Shown here: positions 41,604 through 59,352 of the stretch, one piece after another | Layout: every line of letters starts with the position of its first letter | How positions within the stretch are numbered: position 1 is the first letter of the stretch | Origin: Streptomyces violaceoruber | GTDB lineage: Bacteria; Actinomycetota; Actinomycetes; Streptomycetales; Streptomycetaceae | DNA: 64,000 bases | Direction: 5' to 3' | Assembly (NCBI GenBank): GCA_000720805.1 | Contig: JODI01000009.1 | Coordinates: forward strand, 1-64,000 | Notes under the pieces: model-generated | What the model saw: the letters and a program-made list of their open reading frames with translations, nothing else | Database searches by the model: none | What the model was told of the DNA's origin: nothing | Program-made: the position numbers and the translations under genes

Positions 41604-43817
41604 TCAGCCTACCGATTCCAGGCGGCGGGGGGACTGTTCGGTGCTGCGGCGGGCACGGCGCACTCCGCGTGAGGGCCACCAGTTGGCCTCACCGAGCAGG
41701 AGCATCATGGACGGCAGAACCAGCATACGGATGACGAAGGCGTCCAGGAGGACGGCGACCGCGAGGCTGAAGCCGATCTGCTTCATCTCGATCAGGTGCA
41801 GGGCCGCGAAGCTGGCGAAGACCGTGACCATGACCACGGCCGCGCTGGTCACCACGCCTGCCGAGCTGCCGATGCCCTCGATCACGGCCTTGCGGGTCGG
41901 GACTCCGCGCAGGGCGGCCTCCCGGATCCGGCTGATCACGAAGACCTGGTAGTCCATCGACAGACCGAACAGGATCACGAAGAGGAACAGCGGGACACGG
42001 GAGCCGATCGAACCGGTGGAGGTGAAGTCGACCAGGCCTTCGGCCCAGGTGTGCTGGAAGACCATGACGAGAATGCCGAGCGAGGCAGCGGCGGAGAGAA
42101 GGTTGAGGACGATGCCGACCAGGCCGAGGACCACGGAGCGGAACGCCCAGACCGTCATGACGAAGGTCACCAGGAGCAGTGCCCCGATGATGAGCGGCAG
42201 CTTCTGTTCCTGGTGGGTCGGATAGTCGGTGTAGCGGGCGACGTCACCGGTCACCGCGGTCTCCGCACCCCGCACCTGGTCCACGGTCTCGGGGACGTAC
42301 TTGTTGCGGATGTCCTTGAGCGAGGACTGGGCCTCGTCGCTGCTGACGTAGTGCGGGACCTGGAGCTGGAGCATGCTGATGCGCTTGTCGGGCGACGTGG
42401 TCAGCCGGGAGGTGCCGCTCAGGCGCGGGTCGTCCTTGACGTCGGCGGCGAGTTCGCGCAGGGCGGCCGTCACCTCGGGCGAACGGTCGGCGTCGGCGCG
42501 GACGACGACCTGGTGCATGGACTTCAGCTCCGGGTAGGCCGCGTTCAGCCGGTCGTAGATCTGCATGGCGACGATGGAGCGGGAGTGTGTCTCGCGGCCC
42601 ATGTCGGTGAGCTTGAGGTTGAGGATCGGGGCGGCGAGGGCGAGCAGCCCGACGACGGTGACGGTGAGGGTGGCGACGGGGTGCTTGGCGACGGGGCGCA
42701 GCACCGCGGCGGTCAGGCGGCCGGGACCGGTCCTGTGCGTCTTCTGCTTCTTCGGCGCGAGCCCGCGGGCCGCCCGGCGCTCGGCCCGGCGCTCGGCACG
42801 CATGCCCAGTTTGGCGAGGAGGGCGGGCAGCACGGTCAGGGAGCTGACGACGGCGACGAGGGTGACGAGGATCGCGCCGGTGGCGATGGACGAGAAGATG
42901 ACGTCATCGGCGAGGTAGAGGGTGGCGCTCGAGACGGCGACGGCGAGACCGGAGAGGACGACGGCCCGTCCGGAGGTGGCGGCGGCGAGTTCGACGACGG
43001 CCTGCGGGCTCAGCTTGCCGCCGGCGCGCGCCCGCTCCTCACGTTCGCGCTTGAGGTAGAAGAGCGTGTAGTCGACGCCGACAGCGAGGCCGATCAGCAG
43101 GATGACGTTGGTGCCGACGCCCGCGTCGGGGAAGATGTGCGAGGCCACCATCGACAGGCCGACGGCCGCGACGATCGAGGACAGGGCGAGCAGCAGCGGT
43201 ACGAGGGCCATCGCCACGGAACTGAAGACCAGCAGCAGCGTGATGAGGGTGACCGGCAGGGCGATCACCTCGGTGCGCGAGAGGTCGTCGCCGCGCAGCT
43301 TGTCGACGCCCTTGCTGATGGACGGCGATCCGGTCTCCTCGACGTGCAGCCCGGGGTTGGCCTTCTGTACGGCCGCGGTCTGCTCGATCAGCGGGTCGAC
43401 GTGCTTCTTGCCCTCCAGCTCCGGGCCCTTCATGGTGACGGTGACCCGCACCGCACTGTTGTCCTTGCTGTGGACCGGGTCGGCGACGGAGAGCACCTCG
43501 GGCAGCTTGGCCATCCTGGCGGCGACGTCGTCGGCGGCCGAGTCGGCCGCGGCGATGTCGAGCTTTCCGGTGCCCGGCTTCGCGGTGATCAGGACGTGTT
43601 CGACGGGACGCTGCTGTAAGCCGCCCTCCGCGGCGATCGCCTCGCCGCGTCCCGCCTCACCGATGCGGAAGTCCTCGGTGGTCGCCGGGTTGGTGCCGAC
43701 GGTGATGCCGATACCGAGGCACAGGACGACGAACACGAACCAGCCGACGATGCCCCGCCAGGGGTGGACGGCGCTCCAACGAGCCATGCGTACGGGAAGA
43801 TTCTTCATGTCAACCAT
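41604..43817 (-). CDS. MMPL-family transporter
   Basis: 737 aa, two MMPL bundles (VDYTLFYLKREREERARAGG in the first, GLSMDYQVFVISRIREAALR in the second), outer domains at about 45-180 and 400-530. Such proteins export lipids, lipopeptides or antibiotics. Codon 67 (opposite strand 43617-43619) is TTA, so translation may depend on bldA. It precedes the two-component pair and may belong to the neighbouring peptide cluster. Start ATG 43817; ATG three codons later is possible. Confidence 0.93.
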   Translation of the reverse strand: MVDMKNLPVRMARWSAVHPWRGIVGWFVFVVLCLGIGITVGTNPATTEDFRIGEAGRGEAIAAEGGLQQRPVEHVLITAKPGTGKLDIAAADSAADDVAARMAKLPEVLSVADPVHSKDNSAVRVTVTMKGPELEGKKHVDPLIEQTAAVQKANPGLHVEETGSPSISKGVDKLRGDDLSRTEVIALPVTLITLLLVFSSVAMALVPLLLALSSIVAAVGLSMVASHIFPDAGVGTNVILLIGLAVGVDYTLFYLKREREERARAGGKLSPQAVVELAAATSGRAVVLSGLAVAVSSATLYLADDVIFSSIATGAILVTLVAVVSSLTVLPALLAKLGMRAERRAERRAARGLAPKKQKTHRTGPGRLTAAVLRPVAKHPVATLTVTVVGLLALAAPILNLKLTDMGRETHSRSIVAMQIYDRLNAAYPELKSMHQVVVRADADRSPEVTAALRELAADVKDDPRLSGTSRLTTSPDKRISMLQLQVPHYVSSDEAQSSLKDIRNKYVPETVDQVRGAETAVTGDVARYTDYPTHQEQKLPLIIGALLLVTFVMTVWAFRSVVLGLVGIVLNLLSAAASLGILVMVFQHTWAEGLVDFTSTGSIGSRVPLFLFVILFGLSMDYQVFVISRIREAALRGVPTRKAVIEGIGSSAGVVTSAAVVMVTVFASFAALHLIEMKQIGFSLAVAVLLDAFVIRMLVLPSMMLLLGEANWWPSRGVRRARRSTEQSPRRLESVG

Positions 43818-43896: not shown

Positions 43897-44790
43897 TCAG
43901 TGGAAGCTGAGGGTGTGGAAAACCGTCACGTTGCCTTCCAGTTCCTGGCACCGCTGCGCCGCGGCGGCGAGCCGGCTCCCGCTGTCGGGCGCCGCGGTGT
44001 CCAGGAGGATCCCGAGCGAGGTGCCGCTGTGGCCGATGACGACGCCGAGACCGCCGACCTCCTCGCAGACGCGGATCATCGGCTCCAACGACCTCTTGTG
44101 TCGCAGCACCTGGTTCATCCGGGCGCTTTCGGTGGCCACCCGGCCGACCTCGGCCAGGTCTCCGCGGGCCACGGCGCGTGTGACGCGGTCCAGGAGGCGG
44201 GCGTACGTCCGCCGGTCGGCCGTGGTGAACGGTTTCGGCAGGGCGTTGAAGGCGACCGTGTCGACCGCGCCTCCCTCATCGATGCCGACGACCGTCATCG
44301 GGGGCAGTGAACCGAGTTTCGCGCGCAGCCGCACGCTGCGGTGGTGGAAGGCGACGATCGCCGGGTACAGGACGCCGTCGGTGGGTTCGATGCGCGCCAG
44401 GTACGACTCGATACGGCCCGGCGGCATGGGTTCGCCGAGGGCGTTGGCGACGGCCCGTGCCGTGGCCACCAGGTCGGCGGACGAACTCGCGAGGCCCTTG
44501 CCCTCGGGCAGGGTGCTGTCGATGACCAGCGCCCCGCCGCCGGGTCTTCCGGCGTCCTCCAGGATCATCCCGGCCAGCCGCAGCGCCTTCTTCTTGTGGG
44601 CCGGTTCGACGACCACCTCCGCCTGGTCCGGGGCCAGTACGAAGCGGGCCGTGGACCAGCGGGCCACCGGCAGGGTGACCAGGAAGTCTCCGTCCTCCTC
44701 GGGCAGCACGCCCTGGAGCAGTTCACCGAAGGTGCCGAAGGCCGTGCTGACCCCGGTGGCCGCCGGCCGGCGGTAGTCGATCGTGGTCAC
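43897..44790 (-). CDS. GHMP kinase, threonine-kinase-like
   Basis: 297 aa GHMP-superfamily small-molecule kinase. ATP loop PEGKGLASSSADLV at residues 95-108; GELLQGVLP at the N terminus and GVVIGHSGTSLGILLD near the C terminus resemble PduX-type L-threonine kinases. In this operon it would make O-phospho-L-threonine, the substrate for the PLP enzyme encoded at the operon start. GTG overlaps the NRPS stop codon. Confidence 0.85.
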   Translation of the reverse strand: MTTIDYRRPAATGVSTAFGTFGELLQGVLPEEDGDFLVTLPVARWSTARFVLAPDQAEVVVEPAHKKKALRLAGMILEDAGRPGGGALVIDSTLPEGKGLASSSADLVATARAVANALGEPMPPGRIESYLARIEPTDGVLYPAIVAFHHRSVRLRAKLGSLPPMTVVGIDEGGAVDTVAFNALPKPFTTADRRTYARLLDRVTRAVARGDLAEVGRVATESARMNQVLRHKRSLEPMIRVCEEVGGLGVVIGHSGTSLGILLDTAAPDSGSRLAAAAQRCQELEGNVTVFHTLSFH

Positions 44791-47700
44791 GTGCGACTCC
44801 TGTCCTGTACGTGTCTGTTCCGGGCGTGTGTCCGGGTGGTCGTCTCCCGTATCCGGGCCGCGCTGAGGGCCGGCCTGGTACCGATGAAGTAGTGGCCGCC
44901 GTCGTCCAGTTCGTGGAGCGTGACGCGCTCGGCGAGGGTCCGCCAGGCGCCGACGGCACGGGCCGCGTCCGCGGTCTGCGGGTCGTCACGGGCGACGACG
45001 ACGTCCACCGGGGCGGCCAGGCGGTGCGGGTGCGGCTGTTCCTGTAGCCGGATGAGGTGCCGGTGGGAGGTGTGGACGTCGTGCCGGTAGGCGCGATCGG
45101 CGACCTCGGCCCGTTCCGGCTGGTACGCGTCCAGCTCCACGTAGGCGTGGCCACCGCGCAGCCGGCCGAGCAGGGTGCGCCGGTCCACGACCGCGAGCTC
45201 GGTCAGTTCGGTCCGCAACGCCTCCGCGTCCGGGAGCAGTTGGGCGCCGAGAAAGACCCGTTCGACGGGTCGGCCCGCCGCCTCCAGGAGCCGGGCGGTC
45301 TCCAGGGCGGCCGCGGCGCCGGCACAGTGGCCCCACAGCAGGACGGGCGTGGTGAGGTGGGCGAGGATCTCGTCCCTGGCGCGGCGGGCCAGTTCGGGCA
45401 CGTCCAGCAGGGGTTCGTCGGGGGCGGCGAAGTCGTGGCCGGGCGGTTCGGCCCCGTACACGGTGACGCCGTCGCGCTCCAGCTCCTGTGCGAGCCCCCG
45501 GTAGTTGACGGCGTTCCCGGCGGCGTACGGGAAGCAGACCAGGGTGTGGTGCGGGCTGCGCACCGGAAGCAGTGGATGCAGCAGCCGGTGGCGGTGCGGT
45601 CGGCGGGGCTCGCCGTCGCGGCGGCGGGTCAGGACGCGGGCCAGGTCGGCGAGGACCGGGTGGGCGACCAGGTCGGCGACGGTCAGTCGGCGGCCGAGGT
45701 GGGCGATGAGCCGGGCGGCGGCCAGGGAGGTGCCGCCGAGCGAGAAGAAACTGTCGTCCTTGCCGATGCGTTCCAGGGGGACGCCGAGCATTTCGGCCCA
45801 GGCCACGGCGAGGCGCCGCTCGTCGGGTGTGGCCGGGGCGGTGCGGGTGACGCCGCCGTGGCCGAGAGTGCCGGCGAGTCCGGCCAGCGCCGCCTTGTCG
45901 ACCTTGCCGTTGGCGGTCAGCGGGAGGTGTTCGAGCCGGTGGCAGTAGGTGGGCACCATGTAGTCGGGCAGCCGGGCCGCGAGGAAGTCGCGTGCCCGTG
46001 CCGCGGTGTCGGGGGCGGCGGTGTCCGTCTCGTCCGTGGTGAAGAAGGCGACGAGGGTGCGGGTGGCACCGAGGTCGCCGTCGATGACGACCGCCACGTC
46101 CCGCACCCCCGGCATGGTCGCCAGTCTGTGCTCGATCTCGCCGAGCTCTATCCGGTAGCCGCGGATCTTCACCTGTTCGTCGTGGCGGCCCAGGAACTCC
46201 AGACGGCCGTCGGGCAGCCAGCGGCCGAAGTCGCCGCTGCGGTACATGCGGGTGTGGGCGCGGAACGGGTCGGGGACGAAGGCCTGCCGGGTTCGTTCCT
46301 CGTCGTTGATGTAGCCGCGGCCCACGCAGACGCCGGAGAAGGCGATCTCGCCGGTCGTGCCGAGGGGGACGAGCTCCAGATTGTGGTCGAGCACGTACGT
46401 GGTGACGTTCCGCAGGGGTCGCCCGAGCGGCACGAAACCGCGCTCGGGAACGCCGTCCAGGATCTCGTGCATGGTGTCGTCACACACCTCGGTGGCGCCG
46501 TAGGCGTTGACGAGGCGGATGCCGGGGTGGGCGGCGAACCAGCGGCGGACCGGTTCCAGGTCGAGGACCTCGCCGGTGACGGAGAGGGTGTGCAGGGCGC
46601 CGAGGTCGCGCGGGTGCCGCTCCAGGTGGCGCAGCAGGACGTCGAGATAGGCGGGTACGGTCTGCGCGACGGTCACGTGGCGGTCGACGAGTTCGTCGAG
46701 GAACCCGCAGACGTCGAGCATCACGTCGGTGTCGATGATGCGGGTGGTCCCGCCGGCCAGCAGCGGCGCGGCGAACTGCCACAGGGAGATGTCGAATCCC
46801 GCGGACGCGGTCTGCGCCACCACCTGCCCTCGGCCCGCCGCGAGCCCCATGTCGTCGATCTTCGCGTAGAGGTGGTTGACCAGGCCCGCATGCTCGCACA
46901 GGGCGCCCTTGGGTGTGCCGGTGGAGCCCGACGTGAAGTAGATGTAGGCGGCCTGGGCGGGAGCGGGTGGTCCCGGGAGGGGGTGTTCCGGCGAGACGTC
47001 ACGGATGTGGTCCGACGTCAGGACGGGGAGACCGCCTTCGAGTTCGGCGGCCGCTTTGCGGACCAGAGCCTCGCAGTGGTGGTCGGTGAGGGCCAGCACG
47101 CAGACGGCTTCGTCGAGTTGGACGGCCACGCGTTCCACGGGCAGGTCGTGCGGCATCGGGAGGTACACGGCGCCCGCCTTGAGGACGCCGATGGCGCTCG
47201 CGATCCAGTCGAGGGTGCGGTCCATGACCACCGCGACCACGTCTTCGGCGCCGGCTCCCGCCGCGATCAGGGCACGCGCGACGCGGTCGGAGCGTTCGTC
47301 GAGCTCCCGATAGGTCCAGGTCCGGTCGCCGTGGGCGGCGGCGGGGGCGCCGGGGCGTTCCCGTGCCCGTTGCCGGAACAGGTCCACGAAGGTGAGGTCG
47401 GGCGGGTCGTCACGCGGACCGGCGAGTCCGTAGAGCTGGGTCGCGGTCTCCTCCGGGGACAGCAGGCTCCGGCGGTCGTGACGGGCCGACGGGTCCTCGG
47501 CGAGCAGGCGCAGGGCGGTCAGTTGGTATCCGGCGAGGCGTGCGGCGTGGTCGCCGTCGAAGGCTCCGAGGTCGTACGTCACGTGCAGCGTGAGGCCGTC
47601 CGGGCCCCGCGCCCACGCGAACCGCACCACGGCGCCCGGACCGTGGCCGGGGACGCCGGTCGTGAGGCCGGACAGGTCGAGCACGGCGTCGGTCGCGCCG

Positions 47701-48107
47701 GGCGTCGTCTCCGGCGCGAGGGAGACGGCTCCGGCCAACTCGGCCCAGGTGCACGGGTCGATGGTCAGGCGCAGCGTGCGCGGTGAACTCCCCCGCGGCG
47801 GCACGTAACCGGACAGGACGCCGCGTTCGGAGGTGAGCGTGGCCAGGACGCGGGCGTGCGCGGTGAGCAGGAGGCCGGGCAGGTCGGTGCCGAGGGCGCG
47901 TGCGGTGCGCTCCAGGTCGGCGGCCAAGGCTGAGGGGAGTGTGGTCCGGTATGTGCCGGCGCCGGGTCCGCCCGCGTGCGGGGCGCGCCAACGGGGGACT
48001 GTGGCGGCGCACCCGGCGGTGGAGGCCTCGGGCGGGGGTCCGTCCTCGGGACCCGGGTGCCAAGGGTGGTCCTGGTGTGGCCGGCCGGAAAGGCTCGTCG
48101 CGGTCAT
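44787..48107 (-). CDS. NRPS: truncated C, A, T, TE
   Basis: 1106 aa. Residues 1-220 resemble the C-terminal lobe of a condensation domain but have no HHxxxDG motif. An adenylation domain follows (about 235-725; YFTSGSTGTPKG, FDISLWQ, NAYGATE, YRSGDFGRWLPDG, NGKVDKAAL). Carrier domain serine is about Ser794 in FFSLGGTSLAAARL. The thioesterase (about 860-1090) has GHCAGA with Cys about 928 in place of the usual nucleophilic Ser. The first A-domain code positions read D-I-W. The layout (A-T-TE without a functional C) suggests loading, modification and release of a single amino acid. ATG overlaps the ATP-grasp stop codon. Confidence 0.93.
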   Translation of the reverse strand: MTATSLSGRPHQDHPWHPGPEDGPPPEASTAGCAATVPRWRAPHAGGPGAGTYRTTLPSALAADLERTARALGTDLPGLLLTAHARVLATLTSERGVLSGYVPPRGSSPRTLRLTIDPCTWAELAGAVSLAPETTPGATDAVLDLSGLTTGVPGHGPGAVVRFAWARGPDGLTLHVTYDLGAFDGDHAARLAGYQLTALRLLAEDPSARHDRRSLLSPEETATQLYGLAGPRDDPPDLTFVDLFRQRARERPGAPAAAHGDRTWTYRELDERSDRVARALIAAGAGAEDVVAVVMDRTLDWIASAIGVLKAGAVYLPMPHDLPVERVAVQLDEAVCVLALTDHHCEALVRKAAAELEGGLPVLTSDHIRDVSPEHPLPGPPAPAQAAYIYFTSGSTGTPKGALCEHAGLVNHLYAKIDDMGLAAGRGQVVAQTASAGFDISLWQFAAPLLAGGTTRIIDTDVMLDVCGFLDELVDRHVTVAQTVPAYLDVLLRHLERHPRDLGALHTLSVTGEVLDLEPVRRWFAAHPGIRLVNAYGATEVCDDTMHEILDGVPERGFVPLGRPLRNVTTYVLDHNLELVPLGTTGEIAFSGVCVGRGYINDEERTRQAFVPDPFRAHTRMYRSGDFGRWLPDGRLEFLGRHDEQVKIRGYRIELGEIEHRLATMPGVRDVAVVIDGDLGATRTLVAFFTTDETDTAAPDTAARARDFLAARLPDYMVPTYCHRLEHLPLTANGKVDKAALAGLAGTLGHGGVTRTAPATPDERRLAVAWAEMLGVPLERIGKDDSFFSLGGTSLAAARLIAHLGRRLTVADLVAHPVLADLARVLTRRRDGEPRRPHRHRLLHPLLPVRSPHHTLVCFPYAAGNAVNYRGLAQELERDGVTVYGAEPPGHDFAAPDEPLLDVPELARRARDEILAHLTTPVLLWGHCAGAAAALETARLLEAAGRPVERVFLGAQLLPDAEALRTELTELAVVDRRTLLGRLRGGHAYVELDAYQPERAEVADRAYRHDVHTSHRHLIRLQEQPHPHRLAAPVDVVVARDDPQTADAARAVGAWRTLAERVTLHELDDGGHYFIGTRPALSAARIRETTTRTHARNRHVQDRSRT

Positions 48108-49342
48108 CTGGTCGCGGCCCTCTCTCGTGATGGGTGCGGGGCGGGTACGGGATCCAGGTCCACCTCGATGAGGTCCGCGGCCGCCAGGGCGCGGCGGGCC
48201 GCCTTCAGCGGGTCGGGTGCCACGGCCACCACGCAGGCCAGGCGGTCCTGGAACGAGTGGGTGATGCGGATGTCGCGGCCGGGCGCGGTGGTCGCCCGCG
48301 CGGCCAGGACACCGGGGGCCGCGGCGGCCGCGGGCAGCCCGCGTACCGCCGTCACCCGGCCCTCGCGGGTCGCCCGGACGAAGCGCACCGCGGCGTGGCC
48401 CGCGCCGGGGACCGGCGCCGCCGCCGGGAGGCCCGCGGCGCGGGCCACCACGGCGTCCACCAGGTCCACGCCCAGGGCGGCTCGCACCGCGACCGGGATC
48501 ATGCCGCCCGCCAGGCGGGGGTTGACCTCGATGACGACCGGGCCGCCGGCGGACCAGCGCAGTTCGGTGTGGGCGGCGCCCCAGCCGAGGCCCAGCGCGG
48601 ACAGGGCGCGTACGGCCGTCTCACCCAGGGCCCGGGTCGTGGGCCCGGGCGTGGCGGCCGGGACGTCATGGCCCGTCTCCACGAAGTACGGGACCGGGCC
48701 CACGTGTTTGGCGACCACCGTGACGACCCGGCCGTCGAACGTCTCGACCGAGAATTCCGGTCCGGCCACCGCCTCCTCCACCAGGATGCGGGTGTTGCCG
48801 TCGCCCAGGAGCCGGTGGGCCCAGTGACGGGTTTCGTCCGCGTCGCGGCACAGACGTACGCCGACCGAGCCCGAGCCGCTGACCGGCTTGAGCACGACGG
48901 GGTATCCGATGGACTCGGCCGCGGCGACGGACGCCGCGGCGTCCGCGACGGCCTCGAACCCCGGCACCGGCACCCCGGCCGCGCGATGCCGCTCCCGCTG
49001 CACGTCCTTGGCGCGGCAGGCCGCCACCGCGTCACCGTCGGGACCCGGCAGACCGAGCACCGCGGCGGCGCGGGCCGCCGCCGCGACGTAGTACTCGGAG
49101 CTGGAGGTGACGCCCGCGAGGCCGCCCGCCGCGGAGAGGCCGGTCAGGGTACGCAGCACCGCGTCCGGGTCGGCGGTGTCCAGGGTCCGGGTGTCGACGG
49201 CGTCCTCGACGGCGTACGGATACCGTCCCGGGTCCCGGGCGAGCAGCACCGGCCGCAGGCCCCGCGCGCGTGCGGCGGCGCAGAACTCCCGCCCCGTACC
49301 CGTTGTGTTGCTCTCCACGAAGGCCATCCAGCCGCCGCTCAT
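48104..49342 (-). CDS. ATP-grasp ligase (DabC-like)
   Basis: 412 aa ATP-grasp fold: preATP-grasp lobe (residues 1-110), then PVVLKPVSGSGSVGVRL (ATP-lysine loop), ILVEEAVAGPEFSVE and VIEVNPRLAGGMIPV (Mg ligands). It catalyses an ATP-dependent carboxylate-amine ligation of unknown partners. An ATP-grasp gene also accompanies the diaminobutyrate genes of friulimicin-type clusters (dabC), as far as I remember. ATG overlaps the lyase stop codon. Confidence 0.88.
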   Translation of the reverse strand: MSGGWMAFVESNTTGTGREFCAAARARGLRPVLLARDPGRYPYAVEDAVDTRTLDTADPDAVLRTLTGLSAAGGLAGVTSSSEYYVAAAARAAAVLGLPGPDGDAVAACRAKDVQRERHRAAGVPVPGFEAVADAAASVAAAESIGYPVVLKPVSGSGSVGVRLCRDADETRHWAHRLLGDGNTRILVEEAVAGPEFSVETFDGRVVTVVAKHVGPVPYFVETGHDVPAATPGPTTRALGETAVRALSALGLGWGAAHTELRWSAGGPVVIEVNPRLAGGMIPVAVRAALGVDLVDAVVARAAGLPAAAPVPGAGHAAVRFVRATREGRVTAVRGLPAAAAAPGVLAARATTAPGRDIRITHSFQDRLACVVAVAPDPLKAARRALAAADLIEVDLDPVPAPHPSRERAATR

Positions 49343-50814
49343 CGGGAGCCTCCCGGCGTGTACCGCGCCACGACCGACTGTGCCTCGGCGTCCAGTCGCA
49401 GGCGCGCCTCCCGCAGGCGGGCGCGGTGGGCGGCGGCCCACTGCGCGTGGTCGTGCAGACGGCCCCGCAGGGCGTCCACCGCCTTGCCGCACTCCCCCGG
49501 ACCGCCGCCGCGGTTCAGGGCCGCGACCACCTCGTGCAGTTCGGGGAGCGCCGTTTCCAGGCCCTCGTGCCGCAGGTCCGCCGTGAGGAGTTCGGTGCTG
49601 CCGGACTCGACCGCCCGGCGTACGGCCGCGCCGACGGCGTGGTGCGCCGTACGGAACGGGACGCCCTGCGCGACCATCCGGTTGGCGACCACGGTGGCTG
49701 TCACGAAGCCCTCATCGGCGCGGGCCTCCATCCGCTCGGCGACCGGGCGGGCCCCGGACACCAGCACCTGGCCGAGCAGGATCGCGTCCCGTACGGCGGC
49801 CAGGGCGGGCCAGGCCACCGAGACGGCTTCCGTGCCGACCTCGATGGAGTTGGTGAACGGGGTCGACTTCATCGCCGAGGCCGCCGCCGTCCAGGCGCCG
49901 ATGGCGATCGCCGCCTTCGCCTTGACGTGTTCGAGCAGGAACGCGTTGCGTTTCTGCGGCATCGCGGAGCTGCCCCCGACGAGCCGTTCGGGAAAGTCGA
50001 CGAAGCCGAACTCCTGCGTGCTCCACAGCTGGAGATCGGTGGCGAGCCGGCTGAGGGTGACCGCGGCCGACGCGCCCACGGCGAGCCCGCGCAGCATGGT
50101 GTCCCGAGCGGCGACCGCGTCGGTGGCGTGCAGCGGCGGTGCGGTGAAGCCCAGCAGGACGGCTGTGCGCTCCGGGTTGACCTGGAGGTCGGTACCGGCG
50201 ACGGCGCCCGCCCCGAGGGGACAGCGGTCCAGTTCGTCGACCGTGTGCCGCAGTGCCGCGAGGTCCCGGTCCAGGGCGGCGGCGATGCCCGCCAGGTAGT
50301 AGCCGTAGGTCACCGGCATCGCGGGCTGGAAGTGGGTGTAGATGGGCATGACGACGTCGGCGTGCGCGCGGCTGCGGGACAGGAGGACACCTTGCTGGCG
50401 CATCAGCTGCCCGTGGAGGTCGGACAGCTCGTCGCGCAGTCGCATCGCCGTGACGGTCGCCTTGAGGTCGTTGCGGGAGCGGGCGGTGTGCAGCTTGCCG
50501 CCGACGTCGGCCCCCAGTTCGGCGGAGAGGTGGCCCTCGTACATGAGGTAGGCGCCGCGCGGGGCGTCCAGGCCCTCCAGTTCGCGGAAGCCGCTCGCTC
50601 GCAGCCGCCGGACGGCCTCGATGAGCCGGGCCGCGGCCTCGCCCGGCAGCAGTCCGCTCTCGGCGAGCATCACCACGTGCGCGAGGTCGACGGTGGTGAT
50701 GGGTCCGAGCTCGCGGCGGATCTCCTCGGGGCTCTGTTCGCCGTAGACGATGCGGCGCGTACGGGGGGCGAGAGTGCCGCTGAGGCGGCCGGTGTCCTTG
50801 CTCCGGGGGCTCAT
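49339..50814 (-). CDS. Argininosuccinate-lyase-like enzyme (DabB-like)
   Basis: 491 aa fumarase/aspartase-superfamily protein: KLHTARSRNDLKATVTAMRL, THFQPAMPVTYGYYLAGI, and the signature loop GGSSAMPQKRNAFLLEHVKA. It differs from housekeeping ArgH in being part of this operon. In diaminobutyrate pathways (friulimicin DabB, pacidamycin) such enzymes remove fumarate from an aspartate adduct to leave an amino group. ATG overlaps the PLP gene stop codon. Confidence 0.9.
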   Translation of the reverse strand: MSPRSKDTGRLSGTLAPRTRRIVYGEQSPEEIRRELGPITTVDLAHVVMLAESGLLPGEAAARLIEAVRRLRASGFRELEGLDAPRGAYLMYEGHLSAELGADVGGKLHTARSRNDLKATVTAMRLRDELSDLHGQLMRQQGVLLSRSRAHADVVMPIYTHFQPAMPVTYGYYLAGIAAALDRDLAALRHTVDELDRCPLGAGAVAGTDLQVNPERTAVLLGFTAPPLHATDAVAARDTMLRGLAVGASAAVTLSRLATDLQLWSTQEFGFVDFPERLVGGSSAMPQKRNAFLLEHVKAKAAIAIGAWTAAASAMKSTPFTNSIEVGTEAVSVAWPALAAVRDAILLGQVLVSGARPVAERMEARADEGFVTATVVANRMVAQGVPFRTAHHAVGAAVRRAVESGSTELLTADLRHEGLETALPELHEVVAALNRGGGPGECGKAVDALRGRLHDHAQWAAAHRARLREARLRLDAEAQSVVARYTPGGSR

Positions 50815-51878
50815 GACAGGACCCCTTCGGCGCGCGGGGCGCGCGGGACGACGCCGGGCACCGCGTCGTAGGAACGCCGTCGCCAGACGAACCGGGACCA
50901 GCGGTCCCCCGCCGTCCCGGGCTCGGTGACCCGGCGAGGCCCGGCCGGACGGTCCACCGCCGTGTGGCCGCCCGCGGCGAGCCAGGCGTCGTCGTAGACC
51001 GTGGCCTGGTAGCGGTAGCCCTCGTCGGGGAGCATCACGACACAGGTCCGGTCGGGGTTGCGCGCGGCCCACCAGCGGGCGACCTGGTAGGCGGCGCCGC
51101 TGGTGGGGCCCTGGAACAGGGCGTGCCGGGCGTGCAGTTCGCGGGTGCTGGCGTATGCCTCCGCGGCGGACAGCCAGTGCACCTCGTCGAAGACACCGTG
51201 GTCGAGGTTGGCCGGCCACAGGCTGTTGCCGAGTCCGCGCAGTTCGCGCGGGCCGTCCGGCTGGCCGAACAGAACGCTGTGGTGGGTGTCGACGCCGAGC
51301 GCGACGGTGTCCGGGGTACGGGCGCGCAGGGCGCGGGTGGTACCGCACATGGATCCGCCCGAACCGACCGGGCCGGCCAGGCAGTCGACCGTGCCGAGAG
51401 TGCGCTGCAACTGGTCGGCGACCGTGGTGTACGAGCGCGGGTTGTCAGGGTTGCTGTACTGCTCGGGGCAGAAGGTGTCGGGCAGTTCGGCCCGGATCTC
51501 GGCGAGGCGGTTGAGCCGGGCCGTCTGGTAGCCGCCGACCGGCGCGGGCTCCTGGCAGATCTCGACGCGGGCGCCGAGGTCGGTGAGCCTGCGGTACAGG
51601 TTGCCGTCGATGGCCGGGTCGCTGACCAGGATCAGCTTCCGGCGCATCAGGGCGGCCTGCATGGCCAGGGCGAGTCCGAAGGTGCCGGAGGTGGTCTCGA
51701 CGATGACCGTGTCCGGCCCCAACTCGCCCTTTTCCTGCGCGCGTTGCAGAATGTAGTGGGCGGGAAGCAGCTTCATCAGCGTGAAGACGGCACCGTAGAG
51801 GTTGGAGTCGATCCGGATGAGGCGCGGCATCATCGTGGCCTCGGTGATCGAGGGGTACGTCGAGGTGGCCGGAGGCAT
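50811..51878 (-). CDS. Cysteine-synthase-like PLP enzyme (DabA-like)
   Basis: 355 aa, fold type II PLP enzyme. Lys36 in YGAVFTLMKLLPAHYIL is the probable Schiff-base lysine; ETTSGTFGLALAMQAALM is the substrate (Asn-loop) region; GPVGSGGSMCGTTRAL binds the phosphate. By analogy with SbnA and DabA it would replace the phosphate of O-phospho-threonine with the amine of aspartate (or another amino acid). AGGAG lies 4 bp before ATG. First gene of the five-gene operon, downstream of a repeat-rich divergent promoter. Confidence 0.88.
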   Translation of the reverse strand: MPPATSTYPSITEATMMPRLIRIDSNLYGAVFTLMKLLPAHYILQRAQEKGELGPDTVIVETTSGTFGLALAMQAALMRRKLILVSDPAIDGNLYRRLTDLGARVEICQEPAPVGGYQTARLNRLAEIRAELPDTFCPEQYSNPDNPRSYTTVADQLQRTLGTVDCLAGPVGSGGSMCGTTRALRARTPDTVALGVDTHHSVLFGQPDGPRELRGLGNSLWPANLDHGVFDEVHWLSAAEAYASTRELHARHALFQGPTSGAAYQVARWWAARNPDRTCVVMLPDEGYRYQATVYDDAWLAAGGHTAVDRPAGPRRVTEPGTAGDRWSRFVWRRRSYDAVPGVVPRAPRAEGVLS

Positions 51879-51993: not shown

Positions 51994-52045
51994 CTGACAC
52001 GGGACTGACACCGGGGCGGGGACCGCCTTGTCAGCGGCGTGTCAG
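51994..52045. promoter_or_regulatory. Symmetric pairs of CTGACA repeats, likely activator site
   Basis: CTGACAC occurs at 51994 and 52005 (11 bp apart). On the other strand CTGACAC and CTGACAA occur at 52045-52039 and 52034-52028, also 11 bp apart. The two pairs are mirror images about 52019.5. They lie in the 233-bp divergent gap between the PLP operon and the thioesterase gene, which suits a SARP-type activator driving both directions. Confidence 0.65.
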
Positions 52046-52111
52046 CGCGGATCGAGACCATCGCCCGGGCACCTGTGGGTGCCGGAGCGACTGACGACCC
52101 CTGGGGGCAGG

Positions 52112-52840
52112 ATGCTGTGGACGCAGGTCGTGGAACCGAGACCCTTCGCCGAGCGGCGCCTGGTGTGCTTCCCGCACGCCGGCGGCTCTCCCTACTTCTT
52201 CCGTGGCTGGAGCAAGGCTCTGCACGAGCTCGAGGTGCATGCGGTGTGCTATCCGGGGCGCGCCGAGCGTTTCGGTGAGCCGTGCGCCACCGAACTCGCC
52301 CCGATGGCACAGCGGATCGCGGCGGAGCTGCTGACCGACGACGACCCCCGCCCGCTCGCCCTGTTCGGCCACAGCATGGGCGCGACCGTGGCCTACGAGG
52401 TGGCGAGAACCCTCGAGGCGGCGGGCCGCACCGTGCACCATCTGTTCGCCTCCGGCGCCCGTGCCCCGCAGCTGCACGTTCCGGACGCCGCGGCGGCGAC
52501 CGCCTGGGACGAGGCCGCGGTCGTCAGGACCCTGGTAGAACTGGGCGGCACCGACCCGGAGTTGCTGGGCAGCCGGGCGTTCCTGGACCTGGTCCTGCCG
52601 TACATCGGCGCCGACTTCCGGATGCTCGCCGCGTACGGGCGTGGCCCGGCCGAGCCGCTCGCCTGCCCGGTCACGGCGCTGGTCGGCACCGACGATCCCC
52701 GGGTGACCGCCGATCAGGCGGCGGCCTGGCGGGAGGTCACCCGGGGGCGGTTCCAGTTGCGGACCCTGCCAGGAGGGCACTTCTATCTGGAGCAGGACCC
52801 ACCGTACGAAACAGTGGCCGGGACGCGATTCGGCGAGTAG
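52112..52840 (+). CDS. Type II thioesterase
   Basis: 242 aa alpha/beta-hydrolase. LVCFPHAGGSPYFFRGWSKA, the nucleophile Ser88 in LFGHSMGATVAYEVA, and LPGGHFYLEQ with the catalytic His are typical of editing thioesterases in NRPS/PKS clusters, which clear misprimed or stalled carrier proteins. ATG start after a GGGGGCAGG sequence. It is divergent from the diaminobutyrate operon and convergent with the DAHP synthase gene. Confidence 0.94.
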   Translation: MLWTQVVEPRPFAERRLVCFPHAGGSPYFFRGWSKALHELEVHAVCYPGRAERFGEPCATELAPMAQRIAAELLTDDDPRPLALFGHSMGATVAYEVARTLEAAGRTVHHLFASGARAPQLHVPDAAAATAWDEAAVVRTLVELGGTDPELLGSRAFLDLVLPYIGADFRMLAAYGRGPAEPLACPVTALVGTDDPRVTADQAAAWREVTRGRFQLRTLPGGHFYLEQDPPYETVAGTRFGE

Positions 52841-52856: not shown

Positions 52857-54212
52857 TCACTGGTCGCGGTACATCTCCGCCAGCAGGAACGCGAGGTCCA
52901 ACGACTGCGTGTGGTTCAGCCGCGGGTCGCAGGCCGTCTCGTACCGGACCGGCAGGTCCTCCGCGAGGAGCGCGTTGCCGCCGCCGACGCACTCCGTGAC
53001 GTCGTCGCCGGTCAACTCGACGTGGATGCCGCCCGGGTGGGTGCCCAGGGCGCGGTGGACCTCCACGAAGCCGCGTACCTCGTCGAGCACCGTCTCGAAG
53101 CGGCGGGTCTTGTGGCCGCTGGGCGCCGTTGTCGTGTTGCCGTGCATCGGGTCGCTGACCCAGCAGACCTGGGCTCCCTCGGCGCCGACCTTCTCGACGA
53201 GGACGGGCAGCACGTCACGTACGCGCTCCGCTCCCGCCCGCACCACGAAGGTGAGGCGGCCGGGCTCGCGGTGCGGGTCGAGGCGGTCGATCAGCTTCAG
53301 CACATCGTCGGCGGCGGCGGACGGGCCGAGCTTGACGGCGATCGGATTGCTGATGCGGGAGAAGAACTCGACGTGGGCGCCGTCGAGTTGGCGGGTGCGC
53401 TCACCGATCCACAGCAGGTGGCCGCTGCCCGCGTAGAGCCGGCCGGTCTCCGGATCGGTGCGGGTGAGCGCGGCCTCGTAGTCCAGGAGCAGTCCTTCGT
53501 GGCTGACGTAGAACTCGGCGGTGCCGAGTTCCCGGGTGTCGATGCCGCACGCGTGCATGAAGGCCAGGCTGCGGCCTATCTCGTCGGCGAGCGACTCGTA
53601 CCGCTCCCCGGCGCGTGAGCGGGCGACGAACCCCCGGTTCCAGGCGTGCACCTGGCTCAGTCCGGCGAAGCCGCCCGTGGTGAGGGAACGGACCAGGTCG
53701 AGTGTGCTTGCCGACGCCTCGTACATGGTGCGCAGGCGGGCCGGGTCGGGTCTGCGGGCGTCGGCGGTGAACTCCAGGCCGTTGACCGCGTCCCCGCGGT
53801 AGGACGGCAGGGTCGCATCGCCCTGCCGCTCGACCGGACTGGAGCGCGGTTTGGCGTACTGGCCGGCCATCCTGCCGACCTTGACGACCGGCAGGGCGGT
53901 GGCGTGCGTCAGGACCACGGCCATCTGCAGCAGCGTCTTCAGCTTGCGGCGCACGGAGTCGGCGGTCACCTGCGCGAAGGTCTCGGCGCAGTCGCCTCCC
54001 TGCAACAGGATCGCCTGGCCGCGGGCCACGGCCGCCATCCGCCCCCGCAGGTCGGCGCACTCGCCGGCGGTGACAAGCGGTGCTTCGGTGGCGAGCCGGT
54101 CGGTGACGTCGCGCAGCGCGGTGGGGTCGGGCCAGTCGGGTTGTTGAACGGCCGGGAACGTGCGCCGGAGTTCAGCGAATTCTGCGGTTGTCCCGTCCAG
54201 GAGGACTTCCAT
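52857..54212 (-). CDS. Class II (plant-type) DAHP synthase
   Basis: 451 aa. Motifs: LQGGDCAETFAQVTADSV, VVKVGRMAGQYAKPRS, DPMHGNTTTAPSGHKTRRF. It condenses phosphoenolpyruvate with erythrose 4-phosphate, the first step of the shikimate pathway. It is adjacent to trpE and transcribed divergently, so it serves as a dedicated copy for aromatic precursor supply, as in the CDA cluster of S. coelicolor. ATG preceded by GGGAAGG. Confidence 0.95.
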   Translation of the reverse strand: MEVLLDGTTAEFAELRRTFPAVQQPDWPDPTALRDVTDRLATEAPLVTAGECADLRGRMAAVARGQAILLQGGDCAETFAQVTADSVRRKLKTLLQMAVVLTHATALPVVKVGRMAGQYAKPRSSPVERQGDATLPSYRGDAVNGLEFTADARRPDPARLRTMYEASASTLDLVRSLTTGGFAGLSQVHAWNRGFVARSRAGERYESLADEIGRSLAFMHACGIDTRELGTAEFYVSHEGLLLDYEAALTRTDPETGRLYAGSGHLLWIGERTRQLDGAHVEFFSRISNPIAVKLGPSAAADDVLKLIDRLDPHREPGRLTFVVRAGAERVRDVLPVLVEKVGAEGAQVCWVSDPMHGNTTTAPSGHKTRRFETVLDEVRGFVEVHRALGTHPGGIHVELTGDDVTECVGGGNALLAEDLPVRYETACDPRLNHTQSLDLAFLLAEMYRDQ

Positions 54213-54388
54213 GGCCGTGCCTTCCCTGTGGGTGTCGAATATGCGCCCACTACATATCCACTGCCGGCACCCGGTCAAGCAATTCGAAAATGGACTGCAT
54301 CGGCTCCACGGAATTGGTCTGGCCGCGTTCACAGGGCGGTTGATTGACTCTTCCTGACCGTGACACCCGATTCGGTGGGGAGTTCATC

Positions 54389-55915
54389 TTGAACGAAACG
54401 GGAACCATTGAGGTGCGGATGGCCGCTGCCCGTCTGCCCCGGCATGAACCGCTCGCTCTCTATGCCCTGTTGACCGGCGGCCGTCCCTCGGCGGACGTGT
54501 TCCTCCTGGAGAATCTGCCGGACGGCGGCGAGGACCGGCACTCGGCCGTCGTCGGCGTCGGACGGCTCGCCGAGATCCGGGTGTACGACCGGTATCTCGA
54601 CATCGACGGCGTGCCGGCCGTGGCGGCGGCCCTCGCCCGGGCCGCCGGATCGGCGGGGCTCACCGAGGACGCGCCGCCGGGCCCCGAGCCCGGCAACCCG
54701 CACCGGCTGCGCTTCACCGGCCAGGACATGCTGTGGGCGGCCCTCGGCCGGGTCCGGCGCGTCTTCGCGGTGCACGGTGAACTGCCCGAGCAGGGTCACG
54801 CGTTCGGATTCCTCTCGTCGTTCGCGTACGAGTCCGCCTGGCACATGGAGACGCTGCCCCGGCGGACCAAGGAGCCGCACGGCCCCGACATCACGCTCTC
54901 GCTCTTCCGGGACACCGTCCGGTACGACGCCGCGGACGGTGCACCACGTCATCTGCGGGCACACAGCGCGGCGTTCTCGGAGGCCCCGCCGGCGGCCGGC
55001 GTCGCCGCGGCCGCCGCCGAGGCGGCACGGACCACTGCCGTGGCGGCACCGGAGGCGCCCGTGCCCCGCTCGGTGCGCGACAGTGTCGACCGTGACACGT
55101 TCCTGGACTGGGCGGACCGCTGCCTGCGGCACATCGCGGTCGGCGACCTGTACCAGATCCAGATCGGGCACCGTGTCGACGTCACCACGGACCTGGAGCC
55201 GCTCGACGTCTACCGGCGCCTGCGCGCGCGGAACCCGTCGCCGTACATGTATCTGATGCCGCGAGCGGGCGGCACGCTCATCGGTGCGAGCCCGGAACTG
55301 TTCTTCCGGATCGAACCCGACGACCTGGACGGGGACGAGATCGTGATGCGGCCCATCGCGGGCACCGCGCGGCGCGGCCCCGACGACGAGGTCAACCGGC
55401 GTCGCGTCAAGGAGATGCGGGAGTCCAGCAAGGAACAGGCCGAGCACATCATGCTCGTCGACCTGTGCCGGAACGACATCGGCCGGATCAGCAGGCCCAG
55501 CACCCAGCCGGTGGACCGGCTCATGGAGGTGGAGACCTTCTCGCACGTCTTCCACCTGGTGTCGACGGTCTCCGGCCGCCTGGAGCCGGACGTGGACGTG
55601 TGGCAGGTGGTACGCGCGACGTTCCCCGCCGGAACCATGACCGGGGCGCCCAAGGTGCGCGCCATGGAGATCATCGACGGCCTGGAGGGAGAGCGCCGCG
55701 GCAGCTACGCGGGCGCGGTGGGCCTGATCGACGTACGGGGCTGGTGCGAGCTCGCCCTGTGCATCCGCACGATCGAGCACGACGGCGCCGTCTACTCCAC
55801 GCAGAGCTCGGCCGGCATGGTCGCCGAGTCGGATCCGCAGGCGGAGTGGCGGGAGACCCTGGCGAAGATGGGCGCGGCGTACTGGGCGCTGACCGGAAAG
55901 GAGCTGCTGCCGTGA
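54389..55915 (+). CDS. trpE: Anthranilate synthase component I
   Basis: 508 aa chorismate-binding enzyme: SVDRDTFLDWADRCLRHIAV, GTLIGASPELFFRIE, MRPIAGTARRGPDDEVNRRR, TFPAGTMTGAPKVRAMEIID. TTG at 54389 is chosen because GGGGAG is 6 bp upstream; another TTG 15 codons earlier is possible. The N-terminal tryptophan-binding motif is LLEN (residues 39-42) rather than the LLES of feedback-regulated TrpE. It overlaps trpG by 4 bp. Confidence 0.95.
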   Translation: MNETGTIEVRMAAARLPRHEPLALYALLTGGRPSADVFLLENLPDGGEDRHSAVVGVGRLAEIRVYDRYLDIDGVPAVAAALARAAGSAGLTEDAPPGPEPGNPHRLRFTGQDMLWAALGRVRRVFAVHGELPEQGHAFGFLSSFAYESAWHMETLPRRTKEPHGPDITLSLFRDTVRYDAADGAPRHLRAHSAAFSEAPPAAGVAAAAAEAARTTAVAAPEAPVPRSVRDSVDRDTFLDWADRCLRHIAVGDLYQIQIGHRVDVTTDLEPLDVYRRLRARNPSPYMYLMPRAGGTLIGASPELFFRIEPDDLDGDEIVMRPIAGTARRGPDDEVNRRRVKEMRESSKEQAEHIMLVDLCRNDIGRISRPSTQPVDRLMEVETFSHVFHLVSTVSGRLEPDVDVWQVVRATFPAGTMTGAPKVRAMEIIDGLEGERRGSYAGAVGLIDVRGWCELALCIRTIEHDGAVYSTQSSAGMVAESDPQAEWRETLAKMGAAYWALTGKELLP

Positions 55916-56493
55916 AGGTTCTGCTGATCGACGCGTACGACAGCTTTGTCCACATCATCGACCAGTACCTGCGCACCCTGGGCGCCGACACACTGGTCGT
56001 CCGCTCCCTGACCCGGACACCCGCTGCCCTGGCGGGGCTCGAGCCGGATGCCGTGGTGCTCGGGCCGGGTCCCGGGCATCCGGCCGACTCGGGGCACGTG
56101 GAGCTGGTGCACGAGTTCGCGGGGCGGGTGCCGCTGCTCGGCGTGTGTCTGGGGCACCAGGCCATCGGGCTCGCGTACGGCGGTCGGATCGAGGTGGCCG
56201 AGCAGGTGATGCACGGGCGGACCAGCACCGTGCGGCACGACGGCGCGGGGCTGTTCCAAGGGCTGGGCCACACACTGGAGGCGACCCGGTACCACTCCCT
56301 GCTGGTCGCCGAGCCGCTGCCGGAGGAGCTCATCACGACGGCGGTGGCCGCCGACCACGGCTATGTGATGGGGCTGCGGCACCGGACACTGCCCGTCGAA
56401 GGGGTGCAGTTCCACCCGGAGTCCGTGATGACGACGGGCGGGCTGACCATGATGCGCAACTTCCTGGAGCTTTGCGCCTCCCCCGTCAGTTGA
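55912..56493 (+). CDS. trpG: Anthranilate synthase component II (glutamine amidotransferase)
   Basis: 193 aa class I amidotransferase: Cys79 in LLGVCLGHQAIGLAYGG, with the His-Glu pair in GVQFHPESVMTTGG. It supplies ammonia to TrpE. GTG overlaps the trpE stop codon (GTGA), ensuring equal synthesis. Its 3' end overlaps the convergent MocR gene by 8 bp. Confidence 0.96.
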   Translation: MKVLLIDAYDSFVHIIDQYLRTLGADTLVVRSLTRTPAALAGLEPDAVVLGPGPGHPADSGHVELVHEFAGRVPLLGVCLGHQAIGLAYGGRIEVAEQVMHGRTSTVRHDGAGLFQGLGHTLEATRYHSLLVAEPLPEELITTAVAADHGYVMGLRHRTLPVEGVQFHPESVMTTGGLTMMRNFLELCASPVS

Positions 56494-57868
56494 GGACCGC
56501 GCCCAGCTCCGCGACGGCATCCCCGATCCCCGTACGCGGAAGCTGGGCATGCCCCACCACCAGCGCGGGCGCCCCCTCCCCCGGCCGCGCGTGGAACGCC
56601 GCCGCGCCCCGCACCAGCACGGAGCGGCTCAGCGCCCCCGCCACCAGCGCCGCCTCGTCGGTGTGCGGGGGCAGCTGTATGCAGGCGTGCAGTCCGGCCG
56701 CCGGGCCCAGGACCGTGGCACCGGGCAGATGCCGTCGCACCGACGTCTCCAGGACCTGCCGGCGGTCCCGGCACAGGGAGTTGAGGCGGCGCAGATGACG
56801 GTCGTACAGGCCGCTGCGCAGGAACTGCGCGAACGCCAGCTGAGCCAGGCTGTCGGTACCCAGGTCGTGCCGGGCGCGGGCACGCAGCAGCGGGGCGAGG
56901 ACGGCCCGCGGTGCCGCGAGCCAGCCCAGGCGCAGGCCCGGGGCGAGCGTCTTGCTGGCGGTGCCCGCGTAGACGACGTGATCCGGGGCGAGCCGCCGCA
57001 GGGCGAGGGGCCGGGGCGTGCCGCGCTCGTACCAGAGGCCGCCGTCGTAGTCGTCCTCCACGATCCAGCCCCCGGTCTCCTGTGCCCACGCGACGAGTTC
57101 GGCCCGCCGCCGCGCGGACAGGGTGACACCGGTCGGGTACTGGTGGGCGGGCGTGACGAGCACGGCGCGCACCCCCGACATCCGCAGCGCCGCCACGTCG
57201 ACGCCCTCCGCGTCGACCGGCAGCGGCACCGGCCGCAGTCCGCACTCACGCACGAACTGGCGCTGGCGCGGATGCCCCGGGTTCTCCATTCCCAGGGCGT
57301 CCACGCCCAGTTCGGGCAGCGCCGCGCCGAGCAGACCGAGGGTCTGGGCGAAGCCCGCGACGACCATGATCCGGTCCGGTGTGCTGGGCACACCGCACAC
57401 CCGGCCCAGGTAGTGGGCGAGTTCGGTGCGCAGGGCCGGCACCCCGGCGGGCGGCGGGTAGTCGTGGTCGGCCGGGCCCGCGGACTGCAGGGCCCGCTGG
57501 TAGCAGGTGAGCCAGTCGCGGCGCGGGAAGTGGGGGAACACGGGGGCGTTGGGGCGCAGGTCCCAGCGCACGTCCGGCACCCGGCCGTCCTCCAGCAGGG
57601 TCGGTACGACCGGCTCGGGCCGCAGATGCCGTACGACGCGGGTGCCCGCGCCCTGCACCGCCTCCAGATAGCCCTCGGCGACGAGCTGTCCGTACGCCTC
57701 GACGACCACACTGCGCGAGACGCCGAGGTCGTCGGCGAGGCTGCGGCTGGAGGGCAGCCGGCTGCCCGGGTGCAGCACTCCGGCAGCGACCTCGCTCTTG
57801 ATGAATCGCTGGATCTGTGACGTCAGCGGGACGTGGGAGTCCCGGACGACGTTCATCGCCCCATTCAT
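56486..57868 (-). CDS. MocR/GabR-type regulator (GntR HTH + aminotransferase fold)
   Basis: 460 aa: GntR winged helix (about 10-75; FIKSEVAAGVLHPGSRLPSS, then SRSVVVEAYGQLVAEGYLE) fused to a fold type I aminotransferase domain (about 120-460) with the PLP lysine in YAGTASKTLAPGLRLGW. MocR regulators sense PLP-linked amino acid metabolites. It lies divergent from trpD and convergent with trpG, so it is a good candidate for controlling the trp genes of this cluster. Confidence 0.94.
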   Translation of the reverse strand: MNGAMNVVRDSHVPLTSQIQRFIKSEVAAGVLHPGSRLPSSRSLADDLGVSRSVVVEAYGQLVAEGYLEAVQGAGTRVVRHLRPEPVVPTLLEDGRVPDVRWDLRPNAPVFPHFPRRDWLTCYQRALQSAGPADHDYPPPAGVPALRTELAHYLGRVCGVPSTPDRIMVVAGFAQTLGLLGAALPELGVDALGMENPGHPRQRQFVRECGLRPVPLPVDAEGVDVAALRMSGVRAVLVTPAHQYPTGVTLSARRRAELVAWAQETGGWIVEDDYDGGLWYERGTPRPLALRRLAPDHVVYAGTASKTLAPGLRLGWLAAPRAVLAPLLRARARHDLGTDSLAQLAFAQFLRSGLYDRHLRRLNSLCRDRRQVLETSVRRHLPGATVLGPAAGLHACIQLPPHTDEAALVAGALSRSVLVRGAAAFHARPGEGAPALVVGHAQLPRTGIGDAVAELGAVLN

Positions 57869-57997
57869 GCTGCTCGCATCCCTTTCGCCGAATTGGACCG
57901 CACGAATAATGCGGCGGTGGTCTGGAAAGGACCCGTTGCATTTCCCAGACTGAGACCAGGCTGAAAAGTGAACCCATTCGTGTACGAGGAGATCGCC

Positions 57998-59047: not shown

Positions 59048-59352
59048 GCGTCTGCCGGGTTGCCGTCGGGGCCTGGTGCGGGTACGTCGTGGTTGGTCGC
59101 GCAGTTCCCCGCGCCCCTTGAGTGCGCGGCTCCGCCGCGCGTCCAGGGGCGCGGGATGTGCGCCCTGATACGGCGCACGGAGTGCGCCGTTGAGGGGCGC
59201 GGAGTGCGCCGTTGAGGGGCGCGGAGTGCGCCGTTGAGGTGCGCGGAGTGCGCCGTTGAGGTGCGCGGAGTGCGCCGTTGAGGGGCGCGGGGAACTGCGC
59301 GACCAACCACGACTCGCCCGCACCCGGCCCCCGACACCAGCCCGGCAGACGC
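59048..59352. repeat. Long inverted repeat flanking a 22-bp tandem array
   Basis: Perfect 32-bp arms at 59087-59118 and 59281-59312 are inverted copies; similarity continues outward for roughly 35 bp more on each side. They enclose tandem 22-bp units. The arm sequence (GGCGCGGGGAACTGCGCGAC) is a dispersed intergenic repeat of Streptomyces as I remember it. It lies between the convergent trpD and trpC genes and can act as terminator for both. Confidence 0.8.
59195..59282. repeat. Four 22-bp tandem repeats
   Basis: Units start at 59195, 59217, 59239 and 59261; they differ only at the second base (GGGCGCGG or GTGCGCGG, then AGTGCGCCGTTGAG). A fifth degenerate unit with a 2-base change precedes them. 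Not CRISPR: there are no unique spacers. Confidence 0.88.

Follow-up and report, generated by a model that had tools for sequence, protein, structure and literature searches.

In this study, a stretch of 64,000 nucleotides of Streptomyces violaceoruber (contig JODI01000009.1, positions 1 to 64,000; here called the window) was investigated, and we observed a five-gene operon on its minus strand (51878-43897) together with the 3' end of a nonribosomal peptide synthetase (NRPS) gene whose terminal module has lost a working adenylation (A) domain. The operon encodes four putative enzymes of L-2,3-diaminobutyrate (Dab) formation and one protein that joins A, thiolation (T) and thioesterase (TE) domains (A-T-TE). 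Taken as a whole, about an even chance is given to the account in which this operon makes free Dab and loads it in trans, the recipient most likely being the terminal T domain (T3) of the partner NRPS. The gene order, domains, catalytic motifs, A-domain code and A-less module on which this account is built were read directly from the sequence.

The initial annotation had described a coupled five-gene Dab operon with 4-bp overlaps, and the gene coordinates and the Pfam and NCBIfam domains bear this layout out, as the pyridoxal phosphate (PLP) enzyme, lyase, ATP-grasp, A-T-TE and GHMP kinase genes follow one another in this order with each junction overlapping by exactly 4 bp. The PLP-dependent enzyme (50811..51878; PF00291) is SbnA/cysteine-synthase-like and scored 212.7 bits against TIGR03945 (SbnA), under the cut-off of 349.95; its K36, invariant in five of five aligned homologues, aligns with K47 of SbnA (5d87), which we take to be the catalytic lysine. 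The argininosuccinate-lyase-like enzyme (49339..50814; PF00206 and PF14698) reached 292.3 bits against TIGR00838 (argininosuccinate lyase; cut-off 279.5), with RSRND and SSxMPQKRN residues invariant in all five aligned sequences; by the family model alone it could be ArgH, and the gene context argues for a specialised lyase instead. The ATP-grasp carboxylate-amine ligase with a LAL_C2 domain (48104..49342; Pfam and NCBIfam), a constant partner of the cassette, has the L-amino acid ligases 3vot and 30vh as its nearest solved relatives and displays many invariant positions across five aligned sequences. The GHMP kinase (43897..44790; PF00288 and PF08544) is the proposed threonine kinase; its best NCBIfam hits, to models such as homoserine, mevalonate and shikimate kinase, fall well short of the cut-offs, and no family model in that search showed threonine as the substrate. 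The operon thus brings together the kinase, cysteine-synthase-like and argininosuccinate-lyase-like enzymes that mark a Dab cassette, and relative to Streptomyces sp. NBC_01351 the identities were 79% (PLP enzyme), 73% (lyase), 72% (ATP-grasp), 63% (A-T-TE) and 79% (kinase). The operon proteins of S. cellulosae NRRL B-2687 (L022) are closer still, at 97-99% identity to those of the window.

The remaining gene (44787..48107, minus strand as the others) encodes a PstA-like candidate trans loader of 1106 aa with the architecture (half-C)-A-T-TE. It starts with the C-terminal lobe of a condensation (C) domain (residues 27-235; 47403..48029), which was recognized from an AlphaFold2 (AF2) model and structure comparison and lacks HHxxxDG, followed by the A domain (residues 239-742; 45882..47393), a T domain with LGGTS (residues 756-835; 45603..45842) and a thioesterase-like domain with GGHYF (residues 846-1085; 44853..45572). 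The A-domain motifs TSGSTGTPKG, NAYGATE and NGKVD are intact, and the specificity code is DIWTSTADDK. Among 41 A-T-TE homologues the code was readable in 35, of which 31 fit DIWxSTADD and the remaining four are off by one residue; two homologues without the final K in the code read-out do carry it (NGKADK). The meanings given here to such codes (Dab, kynurenine, tryptophan, asparagine, aspartate and others) are presumed ones; a literature search on specificity codes yielded no source for them. In the TE domain both the nucleophile Cys928 (codon 45326-45324, within GHCAG) and His1072 are kept; an active-site Cys is also present in SyrC and CmaE. ObiF1 (6n8e) is among the solved relatives of the protein, with an alignment that covers residues 228-1078.

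The partner NRPS (G000:C9:63553-74856) begins in the window with its TE-encoding 3' end (63553..64000, minus strand), extends on the same contig to G000:C9:74856, and has the architecture C-A-T-E-C-A-T-C-[dead A]-T-TE, in which E is an epimerization domain. Nine clusters of the window's type were read, those of the window, S. cellulosae, NBC_01351, S. olivochromogenes, S. cinerochromogenes, S. aureoverticillatus, cf386, G228 and G280; the first two are near-identical (97% in the terminal-A part), and G228 may not be independent of the named clusters. The third TSGSTGxPKG motif is missing in all nine, and the terminal A domain is broken, fragmentary or absent. In the window it consists of two fragments, with IRGGTAG in the P-loop region; about 150 residues are left in NBC_01351, and fragments were also found in S. 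olivochromogenes, S. cinerochromogenes, S. cellulosae, G228 and G280. It is gone altogether from S. aureoverticillatus, where C is joined straight to T, and it is full length in cf386, with a P-loop that reads HTAGAGGRPRG and Arg at the positions of the A3 and A10 lysines. Alignment of six clusters showed no damage to the A domains of modules 1 and 2 or to the motifs of C3, T3 and TE, and between the window and NBC_01351 the first and second A domains share 80% and 77% identity, against 52% for the dead one. The terminal T domain of the G280 enzyme (G280:C61:70517-82063; L193, L202) is doubled head to tail in near-identical copies, either a real duplication or an assembly artefact.

The second module divides these clusters in two. 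DAFLVTGVGK was read as its code for six of them (the window, NBC_01351, S. cinerochromogenes, S. olivochromogenes, S. aureoverticillatus and G228), each of which holds the gene C9:94124-95173 or its match (the NBC_01351 counterpart, starting at 26158, is annotated as tryptophan 2,3-dioxygenase). The code is DAWLAAGVSK in cf386 and G280, and no match to that gene was found in the stretches read of these two. The codes, kynurenine-like and tryptophan-like respectively, would fit chlorokynurenine in the six and chlorotryptophan in cf386 and G280.

In the pathway that we propose, the kinase would convert threonine to O-phosphothreonine, the SbnA-like enzyme would replace the phosphate at C3 with the amine of aspartate, and the lyase would release fumarate and leave Dab, three reactions that are suggested by the chemistry of the respective families; the ATP-grasp enzyme would take part in some ATP-dependent step. 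The (half-C)-A-T-TE protein would then adenylate Dab, hold it on its own carrier and pass it, here probably via Cys928, to a carrier of the main NRPS without a working A domain. This recipient would most likely be T3, as its own A domain is dead.

The Dab part of this pathway is well supported by context. The five-gene operon is present in the genome of S. canus DSM 40017 (L036), which we take to be one strain with ATCC 12237. The latter is named as an amphomycin producer in the accessible text of PMC9113097, so that the operon is not missing from Dab-peptide producers. In S. pilosus the operon adjoins NRPSs of 3 + 6 + 2 modules (11 in all) in which a 78-residue stump stands instead of A in module 2, and whose codes presumably fit an amphomycin-like peptide. 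A-less modules accompany the A-T-TE protein elsewhere too: Actinokineospora and Amorphoplanes with A-T-TE have an NRPS of the order C-A-T-C-T-C-A-T-E, and in Micromonospora sp. NBS 11-29 an NRPS whose terminal module lacks A (C-A-T-E-C-T-TE) lies about 13 kb from the five-gene operon, a pairing made by proximity, with further NRPS genes past it. Out of 12 further A-T-TE groups, five hold an A-less module and four were uninterpretable, being cut or frame-broken (L050, L079, L062, L045). The suggestion that the amino acid is handled on a dedicated A-T-TE carrier is also supported. Within the nine clusters the A-T-TE protein was found in eight, and in cf386 (455-532 kb stretch) it is the sole other A-domain protein besides the NRPS and the only candidate seen in the cluster for loading T3. 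The value of cf386 as clean proof is weakened by the Arg which stands at its TE nucleophile position.

Several observations weigh against loading of T3 by this protein. A stand-alone A protein (G000:C9:90973-92640; code DLTMMGHIGK or DLTTMGHIGK, the fourth position being alignment-dependent), able in principle to charge T3, occurs in eight of the nine clusters, the exception being cf386. The A domain of module 1 is intact with a diamine-looking code (DVWVINVDDK) and could use Dab by itself, and the dead third A domain of cf386 keeps the Asn/Asp-like code DVTGVAEVG rather than a Dab-like one. In three of the 12 further groups (L080, L081, L099), the 80 kb fetched about the operon held no A-less C-T, and C-T units occur in two of six comparison clusters without A-T-TE (L086, L019); an A-T protein without TE lies nearby in L086 and L092 of these six. 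Of 40 TE domains aligned, 13 have a residue other than Cys at the nucleophile position, with Arg in cf386 and Gly in S. aureoverticillatus, though the terminal A domain is entirely gone there, so that Cys-dependent transfer is not general and the case for Cys as an essential shuttle residue is weakened. Finally, a search of the whole G280 genome yielded neither the kinase (E <= 1e-3) nor the ATP-grasp (E <= 1e-60), and nothing that spans A-T-TE; T3 must be charged otherwise there. Similarity among T domains and among C domains singled out no recipient. As both candidate loaders occur in the window, and each stands alone in cf386 or G280, the loading of T3 by the A-T-TE protein is held to be evenly poised, and its loading by the stand-alone A protein possible but doubtful.

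This second possibility would have the stand-alone A protein charge T3 with an Asp-type residue, with Dab entering via module 1 (through its own A domain, or from A-T-TE on T1) and the A-T-TE protein serving as an extra Dab feeder. It draws on the wide presence of the stand-alone protein with its presumably Asp-like code, on the code left in the dead A domain of cf386, and above all on G280, where that protein and the broken third A domain occur without a Dab operon and where it likely loads T3. G280 carries an SbnA gene (373 bits, above the 349.95 cut-off) and an SbnB gene beside the halogenase, the latter with 211.9 bits against TIGR03944 (cut-off 326.9; 5' gene part only) and a match to PF02423, and since the module 1 code DVWVINVDDK is kept there, we infer that module 1 is a diamino-acid slot. 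What speaks against this possibility is that cf386 has no orthologue of the stand-alone protein, the residual A domain there having a broken P-loop and Arg for both motif lysines, and that A-T-TE proteins accompany A-less modules in the amphomycin-like and Micromonospora NBS clusters. A further and unlikely alternative is that only the four Dab enzymes matter, the A-T-TE protein having been carried in with the operon from an amphomycin-like cluster as a relic or hydrolytic editor. The differing gene surroundings in which the operon was found, the loss of the TE nucleophile in S. aureoverticillatus and cf386 and the existence of the G280 cluster without A-T-TE would all agree with a relic, but its A and TE domains are 84% and 83% identical to those of S. 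cinerochromogenes, close to the enzymes (PLP enzyme 89%, lyase 85%, ATP-grasp 85%, kinase 87%), and the A10 lysine is kept even in homologues without the TE nucleophile (L033, L035, L038, L051). It is very improbable that the Cys-type TE acts on Dab bound to the protein's own carrier and sets it free in a small, strained form such as a beta-lactam or similar. ObiF1 has a Cys-type thioesterase, and such TEs can release strained products, which together with Cys928 and the structural relationship would favour this; the nucleophile is variable, however, and the same protein type with Cys stands beside A-less modules of amphomycin-like synthetases, where its published role is loading.

A broader model is also put forward tentatively. 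The terminal module of this NRPS family may be an open slot that has given up its own A domain and takes its residue from interchangeable trans loaders, either the Dab A-T-TE or the stand-alone A protein of Asp type. In clusters with both loaders, such as that of the window, this module may act two times, adding two residues before release, and the diamino-acid supply (Dab operon or SbnA/SbnB) may be swapped as a cassette.

During distribution analysis, a kinase-based scan with one genome per species gave 313 relatives, from which 80 loci were kept. The five-gene order of the window recurs in 28 of these 80 (in L074 as fragments only), with two more cut by contig ends, and a second order, A-T-TE, lyase, kinase, PLP enzyme and ATP-grasp, was disclosed in nine. 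The PLP enzyme and ATP-grasp form one open frame in all five second-order loci read (L053, L079, L082, L099, cf386), and the TE nucleophile is lost in seven of the nine relatives with this order, which look TE0-like. Another 10 loci contain the kinase and Dab-type enzymes without a same-strand A-T-TE; in two of them, L092 and L100, the half-C part is matched on the opposite strand. In 30 loci the kinase stands by itself, next to a distantly related PLP enzyme or with a TE fragment only, and one locus is a short contig. The lyase, PLP enzyme and kinase of the Dab operon as initially annotated stand, but the ATP-grasp enzyme, given no role there, is present in all 46 fetched kinase loci in which a lyase is joined by a PLP enzyme with an identity of 36% or higher; within the genus of the window, 41 of 295 genomes gave an ATP-grasp match at E <= 1e-60. 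No paper assigning this enzyme a role was recognised in the open-licence literature searched. Azospirillum oryzae (L018) holds kinase, PLP enzyme, ATP-grasp and lyase genes together, and rhizobial plasmids harbor ATP-grasp relatives at lyase and cysteine-synthase genes. Kinase relatives of 66-73% identity (L044, L046-L049, L052, L054-L056 and others) lie beside a divergently oriented and only distantly related PLP enzyme (27-31%); neither a lyase nor an ATP-grasp was matched in these loci, which probably belong to another pathway.

Some neighbors of the operon recur in related clusters. Downstream lies an MMPL transporter (41604..43817, minus strand) with counterparts of 59-92% in all five related clusters mapped, which do not always adjoin the operon; on the other side is a divergent stand-alone (type II) thioesterase (52028..52840, plus strand; PF00975), likewise matched in those five and situated elsewhere in the cluster in cf386. 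A tryptophan-supply set follows, opened by a class II 3-deoxy-D-arabino-heptulosonate 7-phosphate (DAHP) synthase (52857..54332, minus strand) and continued by anthranilate synthase I, a GntR-aminotransferase-type protein, TrpD and TrpC (54344..60138), the same set being present in NBC_01351. At 55792-56550 a minus-strand frame without a Pfam match was called, and component II of the anthranilate synthase, which comparison with NBC_01351 would lead one to expect, was not located. A TauD-family dioxygenase and a cytochrome P450 (60224..62423, minus strand) precede the NRPS, and the cluster runs past the window on G000:C9 with the three-module NRPS, a type II polyketide-like set, a tryptophan halogenase and the stand-alone A protein. 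A YcaO protein of 892 residues with an extended N-terminal part (G000:C9:94954-97632) has matches in several of the NRPS clusters, its NBC_01351 counterpart being annotated as a thiazole/oxazole-modified microcin (TOMM) precursor leader peptide-binding protein. The NRPS and polyketide synthase (PKS) genes at 98-115 kb were rejected as part of the cluster, none being matched at >=40% identity in the mapped stretches of the five related clusters; they form a separate adjoining NRPS/PKS cluster (G000:C9:97960-115221) with ketosynthase and hydroxyacyl-CoA dehydrogenase domains, in which one C-domain match has an internal TGA.

In summary, one NRPS family displays a natural series of A-domain loss, from full length with broken motifs through fragments to complete loss, with candidate trans loaders, and its clusters show an apparent natural swap of amino-acid supply. 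These two properties make it a good system for studying how trans loading takes over from cis loading and how a release module can be given a new task. The ATP-grasp enzyme of complete cassettes is also brought to attention.

The initial annotation had further considered that the combination of operon and A-T-TE may be new. This was rejected, as the same operon stands beside an amphomycin-like NRPS and trans A-T-TE proteins have been published, namely PstA (friulimicin), LpmA (laspartomycin) and a malacidin counterpart, which serve A-less C-T modules according to the accessible text of PMC9113097, and PacP (pacidamycin). Like PstA and LpmA, the window has a stand-alone A-T-TE, here behind half a C domain, and a C-T module without a working A domain in the same cluster; this likeness was drawn via the S. 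pilosus, S. canus and Amorphoplanes homologues, with PstA and LpmA themselves set beside them by description. The recipient in those systems is, as far as described there, the second unit of CAT-CT-CATE, an internal C-T, in contrast to the A-less terminal, TE-bearing module of the window. PacP is an A-T-TE0 protein whose aminoacyl unit moves spontaneously to the free carrier PacH with the TE believed inactive, as stated in the accessible text of PMC8748450, and it resembles the window's protein in loading another T domain; TE0 denotes an absent nucleophile, and the window's TE differs in keeping Cys and His. The same text presents LgnA as a type II thioesterase (TEII) moving Thr between carriers and SyrC and CmaE as aminoacyl shuttles; these are separate proteins, whereas the window's protein carries A, T and TE in a single chain after the half-C part. 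Compared with the SbnA/SbnB route to 2,3-diaminopropionate, the PLP enzyme is homologous, and the kinase, lyase and ATP-grasp enzymes take the place of SbnB. Gausemycin from Streptomyces sp. B188M101 contains chlorokynurenine and 2,3-diaminobutyrate and has PLP enzyme and lyase genes in its cluster (accessible text of PMC12471526), but it is a 14-residue lipopeptide, and the NRPS of the window has three modules. The open-licence literature searched yielded no description of this cluster type or of trans use of a terminal module. The partner in the window thus differs from these precedents, being a three-module NRPS with a dead terminal A domain in a tryptophan-halogenase cluster.

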